64,000 nucleotides of DNA from Gemmatimonas phototrophica (GTDB taxonomy: Bacteria; Gemmatimonadota; Gemmatimonadetes; Gemmatimonadales; Gemmatimonadaceae): contig CAMBNV010000002.1 of assembly GCA_945869195.1 (NCBI GenBank), positions 62,001 to 126,000 of the forward strand. Direction: 5' to 3'. A program made the position numbers and the translations under genes. Shown here piece after piece: positions 3,159-40,965 of this stretch (its first letter is position 1; the number at the start of each line of letters is the position of its first letter). The notes beneath the pieces were generated by a model. It saw nothing but the letters and a program-made list of their open reading frames with translations, was not told the DNA's origin and searched no databases.

Positions 3159-3812
3159 ATGGACGCGCTGACTGGATGGCTCTCGGGCGCTTCGCTCGAG
3201 TCGATCTACTGGCTCATCTTCGTGGCGTCGTTCATCGAGGGGGTCCTACCGCTGATGCCCGGCGATCTCGCCACGGCACTCCTTGCCTTCTTCGCCGCTC
3301 GCGCCGGCGGGCATCTGGCGCCGACCATCGCCGCAGTCACCGTCGGCAGCGTGCTCGGCGGAATCGTCATGTGGTGGATCGGACGCCGCTTTGGCGCGGA
3401 GTGGCTTGCGCATCGGATCGGTCGCTTGGGTTTTGGGAAGGCAGAACAGCGGATCGAAGCGGCGGAGCACCGGGTTGAGATCGCGTATAGGCAGTATGGG
3501 TGGATGGCGCTCTTTGTGAGCCGATTCCTCCCCGGTGTGCGCGCCGTGGTTCCGGCGGTAGCAGGGGCGCTTCGGATTCCGCTCTGGGAGGTGACCGCGA
3601 TCTTCACGATCGCCTCTGGCAGCTGGTACGGGATTATTTGCTGGATCGCGTTCCGCGTAGGCGAGGATTGGGAGACGGTCCGCGAAACGCTCGAGGTCGT
3701 CGCGCGCAATGTGGGAATCGGCGCCATCGGTGTGGCGCTCGTGATGGTGCTCATCGGCTGGAAGCTCTGGCGCCGCCGCGCCACGCGCTTGAAGGCGTCT
3801 CCCACCGCGTGA
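3159..3812 (+). CDS. DedA-family integral membrane protein
   Basis: SNARE-associated/VTT (DedA) family; members are proposed lipid scramblases or transporters of the inner membrane. The 217-residue product has the typical order: a hydrophobic N-terminus with FIEGVLPLMPGD (the E..P..P motif), a glycine-rich segment TVGSVLGGIVMWWIGRRFG, an amphipathic charged stretch, then FVSRFLPGVRAVVPAVAGALR, the conserved R-x3-G-x-R region, and two C-terminal membrane segments. Starts at an ATG 1 bp after the ispF stop (the open frame upstream overlaps ispF) and ends in a GTGA overlap with xerD. Substrate cannot be told from sequence. Confidence 0.88.
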   Translation: MDALTGWLSGASLESIYWLIFVASFIEGVLPLMPGDLATALLAFFAARAGGHLAPTIAAVTVGSVLGGIVMWWIGRRFGAEWLAHRIGRLGFGKAEQRIEAAEHRVEIAYRQYGWMALFVSRFLPGVRAVVPAVAGALRIPLWEVTAIFTIASGSWYGIICWIAFRVGEDWETVRETLEVVARNVGIGAIGVALVMVLIGWKLWRRRATRLKASPTA

Positions 3813-4723
3813 CTCTTACGGCCGACGAGAGCGCTCGCCACTTTCTCCTCGAACGATTCGACGAGTTCCTCTCGCTCGAGCGGGGTAGCAGCGTGCGTAC
3901 CAACGAGGCCTACGGCCGCGATCTGCTGCGCCTGGCCACCTGGGCGACGGGGAGGCAGGTCGGATCACCGGCAGCACTCACGCCGGCCCATCTCCGCGAG
4001 TTCGTGTATCAGCTGAACGACCTCGGACTCGCGCCGAGCAGCATCCGCCGAGGGATCTCGGCGATACGCACCTGGTATCGATTTCTGCTCACGGAAGGCG
4101 TGGTGTCCAAGGATCCGAGCGAGCAACTCGAGACGCCGAAAAAGTGGCGCCTGCTGCCGGAGGTGCTCACGGCAATAGAGATCGAACGCATCATGGACGC
4201 CGTTTCGCTCGACGAACCCCTCGCATTTCGCGACCGTGCGATGCTCGAACTGGCGTACGGGGCGGGGCTGCGGGTGAGTGAATGGATCGGGATCCTGTCG
4301 AGGGATGTCGTCTTCGAGGAACTCGTGGTCCGCGTCCTCGGGAAGGGGGGAAAGGAACGACTAGTCCCGATCGGGAGGAAGGCGGCTGGCGCCCTCGCGA
4401 TGTATCTGCGGGAGCTCCGCCCGGTGCTGGAAAAGGGCGCCGGAGAAGGGAGGTTGTTTCTGAATGGACGGGGCCGGCCGCTCTCGCGGATGGGCGCGTG
4501 GAAGATTCTGCGAAAATACGTCGAGAAGGCCGGAATTGAGAAGGCGGTGACTCCGCATACCTTACGGCATAGTTTTGCGACACACCTGCTCGAGGGTGGG
4601 GCCGACCTGCGCGCCGTCCAGGAGATGCTGGGACACGCGGACATCTCGACGACGCAGATCTACACGCACGTCGATCGCGAGCATCTGCGACAGGTGCACA
4701 AACAGTTCCATCCGCGCGGGTAA
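3809..4723 (+). CDS. xerD: Site-specific tyrosine recombinase, XerD type
   Basis: Chromosome-dimer-resolution recombinase that would act at dif with a XerC partner and FtsK. The 304-residue protein has an N-terminal SAM-like core-binding domain (about 10-95) and a catalytic domain with the full set of active-site residues: Arg155 (GLRVSE), Lys179 (GKGGKER), His250 and Arg253 (HTLRH), His276 (GHADI) and nucleophile Tyr285 (QIYTHV). The C-terminal tail LRQVHKQFHPRG resembles that of XerD rather than XerC. The GTG start at 3809 overlaps the dedA stop; the frame is open back to 3500 but that is shadow coding inside dedA. A dif-like site lies about 20 kb away at 24677. Confidence 0.88.
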   Translation: MTLTADESARHFLLERFDEFLSLERGSSVRTNEAYGRDLLRLATWATGRQVGSPAALTPAHLREFVYQLNDLGLAPSSIRRGISAIRTWYRFLLTEGVVSKDPSEQLETPKKWRLLPEVLTAIEIERIMDAVSLDEPLAFRDRAMLELAYGAGLRVSEWIGILSRDVVFEELVVRVLGKGGKERLVPIGRKAAGALAMYLRELRPVLEKGAGEGRLFLNGRGRPLSRMGAWKILRKYVEKAGIEKAVTPHTLRHSFATHLLEGGADLRAVQEMLGHADISTTQIYTHVDREHLRQVHKQFHPRG

Positions 4724-17941: not shown

Positions 17942-17984
17942 CCCGCAACCCTTCCCGTAGATTCACTTCACTCTCTCCCCACTG

Positions 17985-19451: not shown

Positions 19452-20629
19452 GCAGGAGGCTCCGCGTGCTTGCGCTGGCACACGCCTTTCCGCGCTCACC
19501 GGACGACCCCGTGGGCCTCTTCGTCGCGCAGCTCGCCGTCGCCCTGCGTGACGAGGGAATCGATACGACCGTACTCGTGCCGAGTGCTCCAGGGCTTCCT
19601 GCGCAGGATACCTTCGCCGGCATCGCCGTCCACCGGTATCGCTATGCCGCACGCGCGAACGAAACACTGGCCTACTCCGGCACCATGGCCGAGCAGGTGC
19701 GCTCCGGCTGGGGCTCGCGATTGGCCTTTGCGGGGATGCTCGGGAACGGGCTACGACACGCACTCCGGCTCACGGACCAGATCGGTGCCGATCTGGTCCA
19801 TGCCCACTGGTGGGTTCCCGGTGGCGTGGTCGGCGCCGCCGTCAACGCGATCAGAGGCACGCCCCTGATCACCACGATGCATGGTACCGACGTACGCCTG
19901 TTGGATTCCGGGATCGGGCGGACACTCTTTCCATTGGTCGCCGCGCGATCGAGCGCGCTCACGGCCGTCTCGTCGTGGCTATCGGCGCGCGCCGCGGCGA
20001 CGGACCACTCGACGACGAACCGCATGGCTGTCACGGTTGCGCCTATGCCCGTGCGCGCCGAGGACTTTCCGCCGGGACCCGCGGCGCGCGGCCCACGGCT
20101 GTTGTTCGTAGGCAAGCTCACGGAACAGAAGGGCCTGCACTTTCTGCTGGACGCGATGGCCAAGTGCCAGACGCGTCCGACACTTGAAATCGTCGGAGCG
20201 GGCCGCGTTGACGACCGCGCGCTCCGCGACCGCGCATTGGCGCTAGGCCTTGCGCATCGGATTACCTGGACGCCGCTGCTCGCGCAGGCCGATCTCGCGG
20301 TGCGGTACCGCGAAGCACGCGTGCTCGTGATTCCCGCCATCGACGAGGGCCTTGGCCTCACCGCAGTCGAAGCCGCCCTTTCGCAGACGCCAGTGATCGC
20401 CTTCGCCTCTGGAGGTGTGGTCGACACCATCATCGACGGAGAGACCGGTATCCTCGTTCCACCGCGAGCCGTCGATCGACTCGCGGCCGCGATCGACCGC
20501 CTGATTGACGACCCGGCCGAGGCGGCGCGCCTCGGTGGGGAAGGGAGGCGATTCGCGCTTCGGCGATTCGGCGCTGAGGCAGTGGCCGCGACGTACGCCG
20601 CACTGTACCGGCGCGCTACACGGTCCTAG
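19448..20629 (+). CDS. Family 4 (GT-B) glycosyltransferase
   Basis: Retaining nucleotide-sugar glycosyltransferase for a surface glycan. The 393-residue protein has an N-terminal acceptor domain (LRVLALAHAFPRSPDDPVGLF, VHAHWWVPGG, TTMHGTDVRLL) and a C-terminal donor domain with RLLFVGKLTEQKGLHFLLDAM and the E-x7-E type motif in PAIDEGLGLTAVEAALSQTPVIA. The overlap with the deacetylase-like gene suggests they work on the same polymer. Sugar and linkage cannot be read from the sequence. Confidence 0.87.
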   Translation: MSRRLRVLALAHAFPRSPDDPVGLFVAQLAVALRDEGIDTTVLVPSAPGLPAQDTFAGIAVHRYRYAARANETLAYSGTMAEQVRSGWGSRLAFAGMLGNGLRHALRLTDQIGADLVHAHWWVPGGVVGAAVNAIRGTPLITTMHGTDVRLLDSGIGRTLFPLVAARSSALTAVSSWLSARAAATDHSTTNRMAVTVAPMPVRAEDFPPGPAARGPRLLFVGKLTEQKGLHFLLDAMAKCQTRPTLEIVGAGRVDDRALRDRALALGLAHRITWTPLLAQADLAVRYREARVLVIPAIDEGLGLTAVEAALSQTPVIAFASGGVVDTIIDGETGILVPPRAVDRLAAAIDRLIDDPAEAARLGGEGRRFALRRFGAEAVAATYAALYRRATRS

Positions 20630-23070: not shown

Positions 23071-23785
23071 GCGCGCCCTCATTATTACGCCGACCTACAA
23101 CGAGCGCGCCAACGTGGTGGTGCTTGTCGAGCGAGTGCTTGCGCAGGATCCGCGGCTCGAAATTCTTTTCGTCGACGACAACTCTCCCGACGGCACCGGC
23201 GACATTATCGCCCGGATCGCCGCGACGAACAGCCGCGTCCACCTGTTACGGCGTCCCGGAAAACTCGGGCTTGGCACCGCCTATCGTGACGGCTTCCGCT
23301 GGGCCCTGCAGCGGGACTACGAACTGATCTTCGAGATGGATGCCGATTTCAGCCATGATCCGTCCCACCTGAGTGAGTTTCTCTCGGCGGCCGAGCGTGC
23401 TGATTTTGTCCTCGGGTCGCGGTACCTCAACGGGAAGGTGACGGTGGTGAACTGGCCAATTTCCCGGCTCATTCTCAGCTACGGGGCCAATATCTACGCC
23501 CGATGGGTCACCGGAATGCAGCTCTGGGACGCAACCGGCGGGTTCAAGTGCTTTCACCGTCGCGTGCTGGCGGCAATAGATCTCGACGACGTCCGGTCGA
23601 ACGGATACGCATTCCAGATCGAGATGTCGTTTCGCGCGATGCGAAAGGGATTTGTGCCGGTCGAGATTCCGATTGTCTTCGCCGACCGGACTGAGGGGGA
23701 GAGCAAGATGAGCGGCCACATCGTCCGCGAGGCCATCACCATGGTCTGGCGACTGCGCTGGTGGTCGATCATAGGCCGGGTATGA
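23063..23785 (+). CDS. Polyprenol monophosphomannose synthase-like glycosyltransferase (GT2)
   Basis: Soluble 240-residue DPM1-type enzyme expected to load a hexose onto polyprenyl phosphate. Motifs: ITPTYNERANVVVLVERVL, FVDDNSPDGTGDII, RPGKLGLGTAYRDGF, the DxD motif in FEMDADFSHDP, and the C-terminal FADRTEGESKMSGHIV. It lacks the C-terminal membrane helices seen in the paralogue at 14953. The start overlaps yfhO by 8 bp and the end overlaps dapF (ATGA), so all three are probably on one transcript. Confidence 0.88.
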   Translation: MSERALIITPTYNERANVVVLVERVLAQDPRLEILFVDDNSPDGTGDIIARIAATNSRVHLLRRPGKLGLGTAYRDGFRWALQRDYELIFEMDADFSHDPSHLSEFLSAAERADFVLGSRYLNGKVTVVNWPISRLILSYGANIYARWVTGMQLWDATGGFKCFHRRVLAAIDLDDVRSNGYAFQIEMSFRAMRKGFVPVEIPIVFADRTEGESKMSGHIVREAITMVWRLRWWSIIGRV

Positions 23786-24591
23786 AGTTCTGGAAGATGT
23801 CTGGGTCGGGCAATGACTTCGTCTTCGTGGACGCTCGCGAGGATGATCTCCTTGGTCGCCGCGCCGCCGATCCAGAGTTCGTTCGAATGATTTGCGCCCA
23901 ACATACCGGGATCGGCGCAGACGGGCTTGCAATCATTCAACATGCTGCTGCTCAAGACTTTACGCTATCATACCTCAACCGTGATGGGAGCGTTGGAGAG
24001 CTCTGTGGCAATGCCTCACTCTGTGCGACGCGGCTCGCTGTGGAGTTGGGGATTGCCGACCCAGCCGGCCTCACATTTGCCACCAAAGCCGGGGTCGTAC
24101 GGGGCCGGATTCGGGACGGCCAACCAGAGGTGGACCTGCAGTCGCCCACCGGCCTTCGCCCAGACGCCGGTTTCTCCAAGCTCCTCGGAGAAACCAGGAT
24201 CGGCCTGGTCAATACCGGAGTACCGCACCTGGTCGTACGTACAGAGGACGCCAACCTAGTCGAACTCAGCGTGCGGGGGCCCGAGCTCCGCTACCACGAG
24301 TCTCTACCGGCCGGCGCCAACGTCAACTGGGTCTCTCCGTCGACAGACGGCGCGTGGAGGATGCGGACGTACGAGCGGGGCGTGGAGGCAGAGACGCTAG
24401 CATGCGGGACTGGGGCAGTCGCCTGCGCCGTTCTACTGGCTGCCTGGGGAGAGGTCGGCGAAATAGCGCGACTGCAGTCGAGGTCCGGCCACATCCTCAC
24501 GGTCACGCTCCGCAAAACACCCGAGGAGCTCCTGCCTTCGTTGGCCGGCGAAGGCCGCCTGGTCTTCGAGGGAGTGCTCAACGAGGGCTGA
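23782..24591 (+). CDS. dapF: Diaminopimelate epimerase
   Basis: PLP-independent epimerase converting LL- to meso-diaminopimelate for lysine and peptidoglycan. The 269-residue protein begins KMSGSGNDFVFVD and has the two catalytic cysteines, Cys75 (GELCGNASLC) and Cys208 (TLACGTGAVA), plus QHTGIGADG. The first cysteine motif, CGNASLC, departs from the common CGNGxRC. The ATG at 23782 overlaps the previous stop; an in-frame GTG at 23761 lies inside the upstream gene. It is the last + strand gene before the dif-like site. Confidence 0.92.
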   Translation: MKFWKMSGSGNDFVFVDAREDDLLGRRAADPEFVRMICAQHTGIGADGLAIIQHAAAQDFTLSYLNRDGSVGELCGNASLCATRLAVELGIADPAGLTFATKAGVVRGRIRDGQPEVDLQSPTGLRPDAGFSKLLGETRIGLVNTGVPHLVVRTEDANLVELSVRGPELRYHESLPAGANVNWVSPSTDGAWRMRTYERGVEAETLACGTGAVACAVLLAAWGEVGEIARLQSRSGHILTVTLRKTPEELLPSLAGEGRLVFEGVLNEG

Positions 24592-24676: not shown

Positions 24677-24704
24677 GGTTTACATAATACATATTATCGG
24701 TAGT
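24677..24704 (-). other. dif-like site for XerC/XerD chromosome dimer resolution
   Basis: Read on the - strand, 28 bp divide into an 11-bp XerC-type arm ACTACCGATAA, a 6-bp centre TATGTA and an 11-bp XerD-type arm TTATGTAAACC. From memory of the B. subtilis dif sequence, the XerD arm matches at 10 of 11 positions and the XerC arm at 8 of 11. The E. coli dif shares the TTATGT core and inner ATAA. The site sits in an AT-rich 255-bp gap exactly where gene direction flips from + to -, as expected at a terminus. Binding has not been shown. Confidence 0.82.
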
Positions 24705-24776: not shown

Positions 24777-24813
24777 ATCGAAGGGCCCGGCATTAACGGC
24801 CGGGCCCTTCGAT
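24777..24813. terminator. Perfect inverted repeat between convergent transcription units
   Basis: Two 14-bp arms (ATCGAAGGGCCCGG and its exact complement) flank a 9-base loop. It lies between dapF (+) and the TPR gene (-), so it could stop transcription from both sides. There is no clear T-run on either side, which is a weakness for an intrinsic terminator. Confidence 0.65.
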
Positions 24814-24846: not shown

Positions 24847-25500
24847 CTACGGCTTCGCGATCAACTCGCCACGCCGGACCTTCGCTTCGCCCGCGAACGG
24901 TGAGTCCTCGCGAAGTGCAATCGCGTCATACAGCTTCGTGGCGCCCGAGATGTCGTTGGACGATCCGAGATTTCTGGCCTGCTCCATAAGGTGCATGTCT
25001 CGGTCATTCGGAAAGGCGGCGTCCGAGGCGGCAGTGGCGAACGCGGCCGCGGCCTCCGCTGGCTTCCCGGTCGACTCAAGCCCCGCGCCGATGAGCGCAC
25101 GAATGCCTGAGCGCAGAGCCCGTGGAGCGCCGCCGACGATCGCTTCGAGTTGCGCGATTCCCTCGACGTACTGGCCCTGCTCAAAAAGAACCTGTGCGAT
25201 CAGCATCGTCGCCTGCGTGCCCGCGGTGGTGCCGCGGTAACGCGTCGAGATTTTCTCGAGCTCTGGCTGGGCCAGGAACTTATTTCCCGAAAGGAAGGTC
25301 GACTCCGCTCCCTGAAACGCGGTGCCAGCCCTCGCCTCCCGAATCTGCCCGGAGCGGCTCCAGAGCATGAGTCCGCCCGCCGCCGCGGCGACCACGATCG
25401 CGCCGATGATGATCTGCTTCTTGTAGATCAGCCACGTCTCTGCAAAGTTCTCGGGCTCGATGGTCGGCATCGGACGTGCCGCCTCTCCGGTCTTGGTCAT
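24847..25500 (-). CDS. Single-pass membrane protein with TPR-like repeats (YfgM-like)
   Basis: The 217-residue protein has a short cytoplasmic N-terminus, one membrane helix at about 31-49 (IIIGAIVVAAAAGGLMLW) and an exported-side region of alpha-helical repeats (about 60-210: EKISTRYRGTTAGTQATMLIAQ, FEQGQYVEGIAQLEAIV, GAGLESTGKPAEAAAAF) of the tetratricopeptide kind. This layout matches the YfgM/TPR_21 group, whose E. coli member assists SecYEG-linked chaperones. It stands alone: convergent with dapF, and upstream is the tRNA gene. The specific role is unknown. Confidence 0.7.
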   Translation of the reverse strand: MTKTGEAARPMPTIEPENFAETWLIYKKQIIIGAIVVAAAAGGLMLWSRSGQIREARAGTAFQGAESTFLSGNKFLAQPELEKISTRYRGTTAGTQATMLIAQVLFEQGQYVEGIAQLEAIVGGAPRALRSGIRALIGAGLESTGKPAEAAAAFATAASDAAFPNDRDMHLMEQARNLGSSNDISGATKLYDAIALREDSPFAGEAKVRRGELIAKP

Positions 25501-25601: not shown

Positions 25602-25675
25602 TGCCCCCGGGCGGACTCGAACCGCCGACCTGCGGTTTAGGAAACCGTCGCTCTATCCACCTGAGCTACGGGGGC
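25602..25675 (-). tRNA. tRNA-Arg (anticodon CCT)
   Basis: The 74-nt cloverleaf has acceptor arms GCCCCCG/CGGGGGC with discriminator A, D-arm region TAGCTCAGGTGGATAGAGC, anticodon loop TTCCTAA (CCT, reading AGG), variable loop AGGTC and T-arm GGCGG-TTCGAGT-CCGCC. The outermost anticodon-stem pair is an A-C mismatch. The 3' CCA is not encoded. An integrase remnant ends 24 bp upstream of its 5' end; tRNA-Arg(CCT) genes are common attachment sites, though usually at the 3' end. Confidence 0.95.
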
Positions 25676-25699: not shown

Positions 25700-26130
25700 C
25701 TACCCAACCGCTCTTCCAATATTCGCCGACTGTGCCGTTCCTGTGCCGTTGTCCTCGAATCTCTTGGTGACAGCGCGGGACAGGTCGGCGGCGTCGATGA
25801 TGTTGTAGCGGTCAAACATATCACGGGTCTTCCATCCGCAAAGGCGCATTATCTCGCCTTCGCGCACGCCGGTGCGCCAGAAGTCGCGGGCGGCCGTGCG
25901 CCTGAGATCGTGAAAGAGCCGGTCAGGGACGCCAGCCGCCTTGGTCGCTCGCGCCCCGACCTTTCGGAAGTCGCCGACCGGCCTGCCCTTTCGGTGGAAT
26001 ACCAGCAGGCCCTGACGCGCGCACAGCCGGTCCAGCAGCAGGGTGCGCAACTCCGCAGCGCCGGCCAGCGGAAACTCACAGGCGTCGTCGCCCTTGATCT
26101 GCGCCTGACTGATTCGGATGGAGCGTTCTG
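25700..26130 (-). pseudogene. Phage-type tyrosine integrase, C-terminal remnant
   Basis: The frame encodes the end of an integrase: ACEFPLAGAAELRTLL, LVFHRKGRPVGDFRK, then the catalytic His and Arg in FHDLRRTAARD, the Trp in LCGWKTRD (Trp is also found at this position in Cre) and nucleophile Tyr in FDRYNI. The N-terminal DNA-binding part and the box I Arg are missing: upstream of about 26130 the frame runs into a piece of ccmA. No start codon in its own context is seen, so no working enzyme is expected. Resembles integrases of alphaproteobacterial islands. Confidence 0.8.
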
Positions 26131-26304
26131 CCCCAACCCCCGCAGACCGGCCACGATGCGGATCAGGCTCGATTTGCAGTTGCCGTTGGTTCCGATGATC
26201 TGGCAGGCCTCGCCGCTGCGCAGTTCCAGCGACAGGCCCCTGAATAGCACGCGATCCCCCCGGCGGCAGGCGGGATCGCTGGCAGTGAAGGTGCACACTT
26301 GCAT
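26131..26304 (-). pseudogene. ccmA: ccmA (haem exporter ATP-binding protein), N-terminal fragment
   Basis: The first about 55 residues of a CcmA-like ABC ATPase are present from the ATG at 26304: PACRRGDRVLFRGLSLELRSGE, then a Walker A region GTNGNCKSSL that should read GxNGxGKSS, so the motif glycine is replaced by Cys. After LIRIVAGL the similarity stops and the sequence crosses into the integrase remnant in another frame. CcmA acts in system I cytochrome c maturation in Proteobacteria; no other ccm gene is present. Truncation and the Walker A change both argue against function. Confidence 0.72.
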
Positions 26305-33314: not shown

Positions 33315-33949
33315 CGAGGTCCACCGACCGGGAGACTAGTGATCCGCGGCTCGGCACCGGCGCGAAGTCGTTGAATATTGGCGCGGTGCGTCCAGACCAC
33401 AAAGAGGGCCATCAAGCATGCGACTGCGAAGACCGGCGATCCGGCGCCATGAGTGCCCGCGACGGCGAGCGGCATCGTGAGTGCTGCGCTGATCGAGCCG
33501 AGCGAGACGAGGCGTGAGCGGTACACGGTGGCGACGAAGACTACGAGCGCCACACCGAGCGCCACGGGAGCGAGCGCACCAAAGACACCGGCGGCGGTCG
33601 CGACGCCCTTCCCTCCCCCTCGCCACAGCAGGAGAATCGGTTTCGCGTGACCCGCCGTCGCCGCCACTCCGCACGCGAGTCCCCACCAGAGCGTGGCGTT
33701 CGCGCCGCTGCGGTACGCCCCGTCGATGACGGCGGGCAGGAGTACGACGGGAAGCGCTCCCTTCATCGCGTCCAGCAGCAACACCGCCGAGGCGGCCCCC
33801 GCCCCGAGCGCACGATACACATTGGTCGCTCCGAGATTCCCGGAGCCCACGGTGCGGAGATCGACGCCCTTCAACGCTCGCCCGGCCAAATAGGCCGACG
33901 GGAACGATCCCGCGACGTATGCGATCAGCACGGCGAGCGCCGGATTCAT
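33311..33949 (-). CDS. plsY: Acyl-phosphate glycerol-3-phosphate acyltransferase PlsY
   Basis: Polytopic inner-membrane enzyme transferring an acyl group from acyl-phosphate to glycerol 3-phosphate. The 212-residue protein has the three family motifs: SFPSAYLAGRAL and GSGNLGATNVYRALG, HAKPILLLWRGGGKGVAT, and a C-terminal VVWTHRANIQRLRAG. Five or so membrane segments are visible. The ATG at 33949 overlaps the der stop; longer in-frame starts lie within der. PlsX is not in the window. Confidence 0.93.
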   Translation of the reverse strand: MNPALAVLIAYVAGSFPSAYLAGRALKGVDLRTVGSGNLGATNVYRALGAGAASAVLLLDAMKGALPVVLLPAVIDGAYRSGANATLWWGLACGVAATAGHAKPILLLWRGGGKGVATAAGVFGALAPVALGVALVVFVATVYRSRLVSLGSISAALTMPLAVAGTHGAGSPVFAVACLMALFVVWTHRANIQRLRAGAEPRITSLPVGGPR

Positions 33950-39111: not shown

Positions 39112-40965
39112 CTACGAAGTGGCGTTGGACTTCACATCTGCCGACATCACGCCTAACGCCTGCAATACTGCTCGCGCGCTCGTTTCGCTGAACCCGTCGA
39201 GCGCAGCGATCTGCGGCACGGTGGCGTCGCGCACACCCTGCAGCGATCCAAAGTTCGCGAGTAACAACGTACGCCTTTTCGGACCAACCCCCGGAATGCG
39301 CAAGAGTTCGCTTGTGATGGTGCGCATGGTGCGCCGCTTGCGGTTGTAGCCCACCGCGGTGCGGTGCGCCTCGTCACGCGCCTGCTGTAGGAGGCGTAGC
39401 GCCGGAGAGCGACGCGAAAGCCGCAACGGCTGAGCGCGCCCCCGCACGAAAATCTCTTCCTCGCGCTTCGCGAGACTCACCAACGGCAGTGCCCCAAGAC
39501 CGAGCGCCTGCAGCGCTTCGTCGGCCGCACTGAGCTGGCCCTTCCCGCCATCAACCACGACGAGGTCGGGGAGCTGCTTCTTTTCATCCAGGCGCCTCCG
39601 GAAGTAACGGCCCACGACCTCGCGCATGGACTGAAAGTCGTCTGGCCCGGCCGCCTCTTCCACCGATTTCACGCGCATGGTCCTATACTCAGCGCGCCGC
39701 GGTCGTCCGTTCTCGAACCAGACAATGCTCCCCACCGAGTCCTTGCCCTGCGCGGTCGAGTTGTCAAAGCAGACCAGCGAACGAGGCAGTTTCTCCAAGC
39801 CGAGTTGCTGACCGAGTTCGTACACGGGGTCGGCCGCGCGCTCGTCGGTCTCCTGCTCTGCCAGCTTGAACTCCTCAAGCAGATGCCGTGCGTTCTGCTC
39901 AGCGAGATCGAGGAGATCGCGCTTCGGGCCGCGCTGCGGAAAGAGTATCTTCGCCTCGCCCGACAGCGCCTGCTCGAAAAGCTCGCGATCCTCGAAGTCG
40001 AATGGGATCAGCAGCTCGCGCGCTCGGGCATTGGTGTTGAGGTAGCTACCCACGAGATAGACCAACAAGACTTTGCCATCCGACTCGCCCTCGACCCCTT
40101 CGAGGAAACGGTGTTCGCGGGCCACGAGCTTGCCGCCGCGGATGCGCAGCAACGTGGCGGCGGCATCGTCACCGTCGCGCGCATAGCCAACGACATCACG
40201 GTCACCTCCTTCCACCTCCATGACGACGGTCGGCTCCTCGAGCCGCTGGAGTCGCAGCACTGCATCACGCAGCTCGGCCGCTCGCTCGAAATCGAGTGCC
40301 TCGGCCGCCTGTTCCATGCGCTCCGTCACGCGCCGCACGACATTGTCCGTGCGGCCATCGAGGAACGCGACCACTTCGCCCACCATTGCATTGTAATCCG
40401 ACAAAGACTGGAGTCCCACACAGGGCGCCTTGCAGCGGCCGATGTGATAGTCCAGGCAGGCTCGCTCCGGCATCTCGGTCGGCATATTGTACTTGCACGA
40501 GCGCACCGTGAAGATCCGCTTCATGACATCGAGCGCACGACGCATCGCGGTCACGTCGGTGTACGGGCCGAAGTATCGCGCGCTGTCGCTCTGGACTCGC
40601 CGTGTGACGAAGACGCGCGGATACGGCTCCTGCGTCGTCACCTTGATATACGGATACGTCTTGTCGTCGCGCAGCATCACGTTGTACTTCGGACGGTGCT
40701 CCTTGATCAGATTCTGCTCAAGAAGCAGGGCGCTCGCTTCGTCGGGTACGACGATCGTGTCGACATCGACAATCTGCTCGACGAGCCGGCGCGTCTTCGG
40801 ATACTCAACGTGGTCCGACCCGAAGTAGCTGCGCACCCGCGGCCGAAGGCGCTTCGCCTTGCCGATGTACAGAATCACACCGTCGGCATCTTTCCAGAGA
40901 TAGACGCCGGGCGTCTCCGGCAGGTGTGTGATCTTTTGAGCGAGGGCCCTAGGCGCGTCGCGCAT
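39112..40965 (-). CDS. uvrC: UvrABC excinuclease subunit UvrC
   Basis: Dual-incision nuclease of nucleotide excision repair. The 617-residue protein has the GIY-YIG domain (about 12-90: PGVYLWKDADGVILYIGKAK), a four-Cys-type region CLDYHIGRCKAPC, the UVR motif near 205-240 (ERMEQAAEALDFERAAELRDAV), an RNase H-like nuclease domain (SLVCFDNSTAQG, LVVVDGGKGQLSAADEAL) and the C-terminal double helix-hairpin-helix (IPGVGPKRRTLLLANFGS). Start lies 17 bp within murJ. Length is typical. Confidence 0.97.
   Translation of the reverse strand: MRDAPRALAQKITHLPETPGVYLWKDADGVILYIGKAKRLRPRVRSYFGSDHVEYPKTRRLVEQIVDVDTIVVPDEASALLLEQNLIKEHRPKYNVMLRDDKTYPYIKVTTQEPYPRVFVTRRVQSDSARYFGPYTDVTAMRRALDVMKRIFTVRSCKYNMPTEMPERACLDYHIGRCKAPCVGLQSLSDYNAMVGEVVAFLDGRTDNVVRRVTERMEQAAEALDFERAAELRDAVLRLQRLEEPTVVMEVEGGDRDVVGYARDGDDAAATLLRIRGGKLVAREHRFLEGVEGESDGKVLLVYLVGSYLNTNARARELLIPFDFEDRELFEQALSGEAKILFPQRGPKRDLLDLAEQNARHLLEEFKLAEQETDERAADPVYELGQQLGLEKLPRSLVCFDNSTAQGKDSVGSIVWFENGRPRRAEYRTMRVKSVEEAAGPDDFQSMREVVGRYFRRRLDEKKQLPDLVVVDGGKGQLSAADEALQALGLGALPLVSLAKREEEIFVRGRAQPLRLSRRSPALRLLQQARDEAHRTAVGYNRKRRTMRTITSELLRIPGVGPKRRTLLLANFGSLQGVRDATVPQIAALDGFSETSARAVLQALGVMSADVKSNATS

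Follow-up and report, generated by a model that had tools for sequence, protein, structure and literature searches.

A chromosomal dif site at the gene-strand switch of a Gemmatimonas chromosome, its conservation in Gemmatimonadota and candidate KOPS octamers

The dif locus and the recombination genes

The window, by which we mean the whole 64,000-nucleotide stretch of DNA analyzed here (G000:C2:62001-126000), lies on a 300,805-base contig (C2) of a genome that is in 15 contigs. Within it, dapF, the gene for diaminopimelate epimerase (23761..24591, plus strand), and a gene for a TPR-domain protein (24847..25500, minus strand) are convergent, and between them, at 24677..24704, is a 28-bp stretch whose plus-strand letters are GGTTTACATAATACATATTATCGGTAGT. 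Its reverse complement has the 11-6-11 layout of a dif site, as the initial annotation had described it: read on the minus strand, a XerC-type arm (ACTACCGATAA, 24694..24704) is followed by a 6-bp central region (TATGTA, 24688..24693) and a XerD-type arm (TTATGTAAACC, 24677..24687). The two 11-bp arms are the predicted binding sites of XerC and XerD, and, by analogy with known dif sites, the central region would be the place of strand exchange. dapF runs towards the XerD arm and the TPR gene towards the XerC arm.

Two further features lie to the right of dif. A perfect 14-bp inverted repeat with a 7-base loop (24778..24812), located between dif and the TPR gene, probably marks the end of a transcript there; it has no run of T, and a terminator scan did not find it. 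About 1 kb from dif are a tRNA-Arg (25602-25675, minus strand) and, beside it, a partial open reading frame of 198 aa for a tyrosine recombinase (25700-26296, minus strand), which has a weak match to Phage_integrase below the cut-off. Together these look like what is left of an element that once integrated here.

The genome encodes the proteins with which a dif site works. The xerD gene (3809..4723, plus strand) is inside the window, about 20 kb to the left of dif, and encodes 304 aa from a GTG start in a reading frame that opens at 3500; it scored 348 bits against TIGR02225 (cut-off 329.6). The best XerC candidate, on contig C1, reached 324.5 bits, just under the curated XerC cut-off of 335.15, with XerC as its best model. 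An FtsK with a gamma domain is encoded on contig C12 (E 1.4e-26), and such a protein was found in 16 of the 17 genomes searched in the genus. A third integrase, on contig C5 (G000:C5, L033:1435-2424, minus strand), is an integron integrase (TIGR02249, 405 bits; cut-off 265).

Copy number and conservation

The dif 28-mer has a single match at ≤3 mismatches in the whole genome of 2,330,823 bases, while the reversed pattern, used as a control, has none there, and the supposition that the site is unique thus held. Eight nearest relatives, in addition to the genome itself, match the 28-mer at the same threshold. A stringent pattern that keeps the core of the arms was present in 108 of 395 Gemmatimonadota genomes (that of the window included), nearly always as one copy, and its reversed control had no match in any of the 395. 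With a looser pattern the site was found in 268 of 298 genomes, the control then matching in a small minority of genomes; about 10% of the 298 had no match even to this pattern. A scan of named genomes returned 16 dif stretches, all of them titled Gemmatimonadetes, Gemmatimonadaceae or Gemmatimonadota, in agreement with the Gemmatimonadota-like host proposed at the outset. Among 59 distinct sites, C5, ATAA (8-11) and TTATGT (18-23) were invariant, an invariance that is partly built in because the search patterns demand most of those bases. The position of dif is also nearly constant across this little-studied phylum.

The neighboring genes are conserved more narrowly. Of 59 dif loci in families f1 and f2 (a set that counts genome G035 twice), 57 have dapF beyond the XerD arm and pointing at dif; for one of the other two, the available sequence stops shortly after the site. 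The TPR gene was found beyond the XerC arm in 51 of the 59. For families f4-f6, 20 loci were examined, and dapF was found within 3 kb of dif in none of them. The dapF/TPR order is therefore a feature of two families of the order and not of the phylum.

The recombinase remnant and tRNA-Arg raise the question of whether this dif copy was brought in, or is used, by a Xer-integrating element (IMEX) instead of being the chromosome's own, a reading to which the few relatives with two dif matches would also lend themselves. An element at dif requires two flanking dif-like sites, and no second dif-like repeat was found near this one. In addition, the genome has a single copy, the two matches in one relative (G200) come from a single site that is present twice because two contig ends overlap, their shared bases being identical, and the order dapF-dif-TPR is the same across two families. 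With a single copy and conserved neighbors, this explanation is largely refuted, and we consider it very improbable. Still less credible is the reading that an AT-rich stretch separating two convergent genes, and holding a promoter or terminator, looks like dif by chance: the site is intergenic and is overlapped by a weak sigma-70-like match, but about 90% of the genomes of the phylum retain these arms, nearly always once in each, the reversed pattern has no match under the stringent search, and families f4-f6 keep dif beside other neighbors, so that its conservation is independent of the adjacent genes.

Position of dif on the chromosome

Since the genome is in 15 contigs, its own data on the terminus are local, consisting of gene strand and skew. 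The distance from dif to dnaA was taken in relatives that have a closed or nearly closed chromosome. As a percentage of the contig it was 49.3 in G011, 48.0 in G122, 44.2 in G131, 47.8 in G005 and 48.1 in G032, and roughly 42-45 (from rounded sizes) in G038, G111 and G134, an overall range of 42-49%. In these relatives dif is thus opposite dnaA, which agrees with the terminus position that had been assigned to the window.

The relation of dif to GC skew varied. The cumulative skew peaked at 1606176 in a 394 kb stretch of G011, 48 bp away from dif (first base at 1606128), and at 1479010 in a 400 kb stretch of G005, 29 bp from dif (1479039), so that the expected skew switch at dif was found to within about 50 bp in two relatives. 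It was not found in the window's own contig, the only one of that genome for which skew was computed, where the peak is 13 kb to the left of dif. The peak was about 12 kb from dif in G122, and in G131 a peak at dif was looked for and was absent.

Gene direction changes from plus to minus at dif, as initially noted. Based on gene calls from our own codon-usage script, as opposed to a standard gene finder, there are 71 plus-strand and 5 minus-strand genes to the left of dif on the 300,805-base contig and 25 plus-strand and 143 minus-strand genes to the right. Within the window, the initial annotation had counted one gene of about 24 against the trend on the left and one of about 40 on the right; we found one on the right, a small ORF, and two on the left, one of which is a weak overlapping ORF, so that its count was close overall. 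The same plus-to-minus switch was seen around dif in four of five genomes. The fifth, G131, has genes mostly in the opposite arrangement: around G131:C1 position 1257893 most genes near dif point away from it and there is no skew switch, while the KOPS-like octamers keep their polarity. A large inversion may account for this layout, or the terminus of G131 may be arranged differently.

In five relatives, a stretch with two DnaA-like domains was observed some 200-300 kb away from dif (G011:C1:1400074-1401609, G005:C1:1683587-1685128, G038:C1:1693244-1694866, G111:C1:1881586-1883166 and G134:C1:1714214-1715791), and a similar one about 590 kb from dif in G131. In the genome of the window dnaA appeared alone, with no further stretch of this kind.

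Polar octamers around dif

In E. coli and V. cholerae, the KOPS is GGGNAGGG. For the present window a different octamer, GGGAAGGG, had been put forward as KOPS-like because four copies point towards dif. All four are present (4340..4347 and 20538..20545 on the plus strand, 33606..33613 and 39539..39546 on the minus strand), but a fifth copy, at 17949..17956 on the minus strand to the left of dif, points away from it and had been missed. Five copies is modestly above chance, having been reached in 1 of 100 shuffles. Over three genomes the raw polarity of GGGAAGGG was 27 towards and 5 away. Among the 7722 octamers with a skew it ranks only 814th, since the orientation of most of them goes with that of the genes. 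Given that co-oriented genes make many octamers polar in this way, counting was limited to lagging-strand genes and intergenic DNA, with genes called by the same codon-usage script. Outside leading-strand genes GGGAAGGG then stood at 18 to 5 (p 0.034 against a second-order Markov expectation). On its own it is weak evidence for a KOPS, and GGGCAGGG and GGGCGGGG are far stronger outside leading-strand genes; the idea of a KOPS-like signal was right in outline, while the word chosen was not the best one.

The counts outside leading-strand genes in five genomes, towards versus away from dif, were 105 to 23 for GGGNAGGG, 57 to 8 for GGGCAGGG and 95 to 16 for GGGCGGGG, each with a near-even Markov expectation. 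Most words of the same composition were less polar than the GGGNAGGG and GGGCGGGG candidates. When GGGNAGGG and GGGCGGGG were taken together, the interval in which polarity changes included dif in each of the five genomes, although in two of them a nearby interval did equally well. GGGCGGGG was chosen after three of the five genomes had been viewed; in the two added afterwards, it stood at 29 to 12 (G122) and 53 to 8 (G131). In G131 the polarity of the octamers was unchanged although the gene bias is opposite. Both GGGNAGGG and GGGCGGGG are thus polar towards dif and switch there in a way that gene strand does not explain. Other words behaved differently: codon-driven octamers such as CATCAAGG track the gene and not the replichore, and the SpoIIIE-type GAGAAGGG is polar inside leading-strand genes and not outside them. 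The better KOPS candidates are therefore GGGNAGGG, GGGCAGGG above all, and GGGCGGGG, to which FtsK would bind if it acts as in known systems.

Discussion

We conclude that the 28 bp at 24677-24704 are almost certainly the chromosomal dif of an ordinary XerC/XerD system, with binding and recombination predicted. A dif is a usual component of bacterial chromosomes, and like the dif sites of E. coli and B. subtilis this one is 28 bp long with an 11-6-11 layout, has a TTATGT-type XerD arm, is a single copy at the terminus and occurs in a genome with XerC, XerD and FtsK gamma. Nothing essential differs; the XerC arm and the center are lineage-specific. By analogy with those systems, a dimer that arises when recombination joins two sister chromosomes would be resolved as follows. 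FtsK at the division septum would load on the polar G-rich octamers (KOPS) and pump DNA to the terminus, by which the two dif copies would be brought together. XerC would then sit on ACTACCGATAA and XerD on TTATGTAAACC, the FtsK gamma domain would activate XerD, and the two recombinases, with an order of cleavage presumably as in known systems, would swap strands across TATGTA to give monomers.

The octamers of Gemmatimonadota resemble those of E. coli and V. cholerae in that GGGNAGGG likewise points to dif and switches there; they differ in that GGGCGGGG is equally polar. A difference is also seen in FtsK. The gamma recognition helix in the genus is GYGRAARIIDQLH or a close variant, versus GYNRAARIIEQME in E. 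coli. In the E. coli protein, R1300, E1303 and E1306 contribute to KOPS recognition (PMC2680272). E1303 and E1306 correspond to D and to H or Q in the genus, according to our own alignment and matching of residue numbers. Our guess is that these changes in the helix widen the KOPS motif. We tentatively put forward, at somewhat less than even weight, the fuller proposal that Gemmatimonadota FtsK reads a widened KOPS, GGGNAGGG plus GGGCGGGG, through this changed gamma helix (G-R-D-H/Q versus N-R-E-E), with dif locked between dapF and the TPR gene and serving as a fixed end to the strand-biased region of the terminus.

The initial annotation regarded dif as little described in this phylum, which is fair, although it is not undescribed. 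Kono et al. 2011 (PMC3025954) had one Gemmatimonadetes genome in their test set and predicted a dif in it; by its description that is the same kind of site in the same phylum, and one genome compares with the hundreds of sites and their neighbors in this study. Tomasch et al. 2024 (PMC11237797) reported a strand switch at ter in Gemmatimonadota, inferring ter from skew. Their region of high strand bias, in which the switch coincides with a GC-skew peak located opposite ori, is like that of our window; dif comes up once in their paper, in a general remark, and dapF not at all, whereas here dif itself is placed at the switch. A literature search of partial coverage found no paper on KOPS in Gemmatimonadota. 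What is new is the phylum-wide set of dif sites, the conserved locus and the candidate KOPS; the dif itself is ordinary.

These data provide an exact marker of the terminus for a phylum in whose chromosomes the genes around ter show an unusual strand bias; in the genome studied here and in most of the relatives examined, the strand switch that had been published coincides with dif. Candidate KOPS are now available to test, and G131, whose genes run against its KOPS polarity, separates the one from the other.
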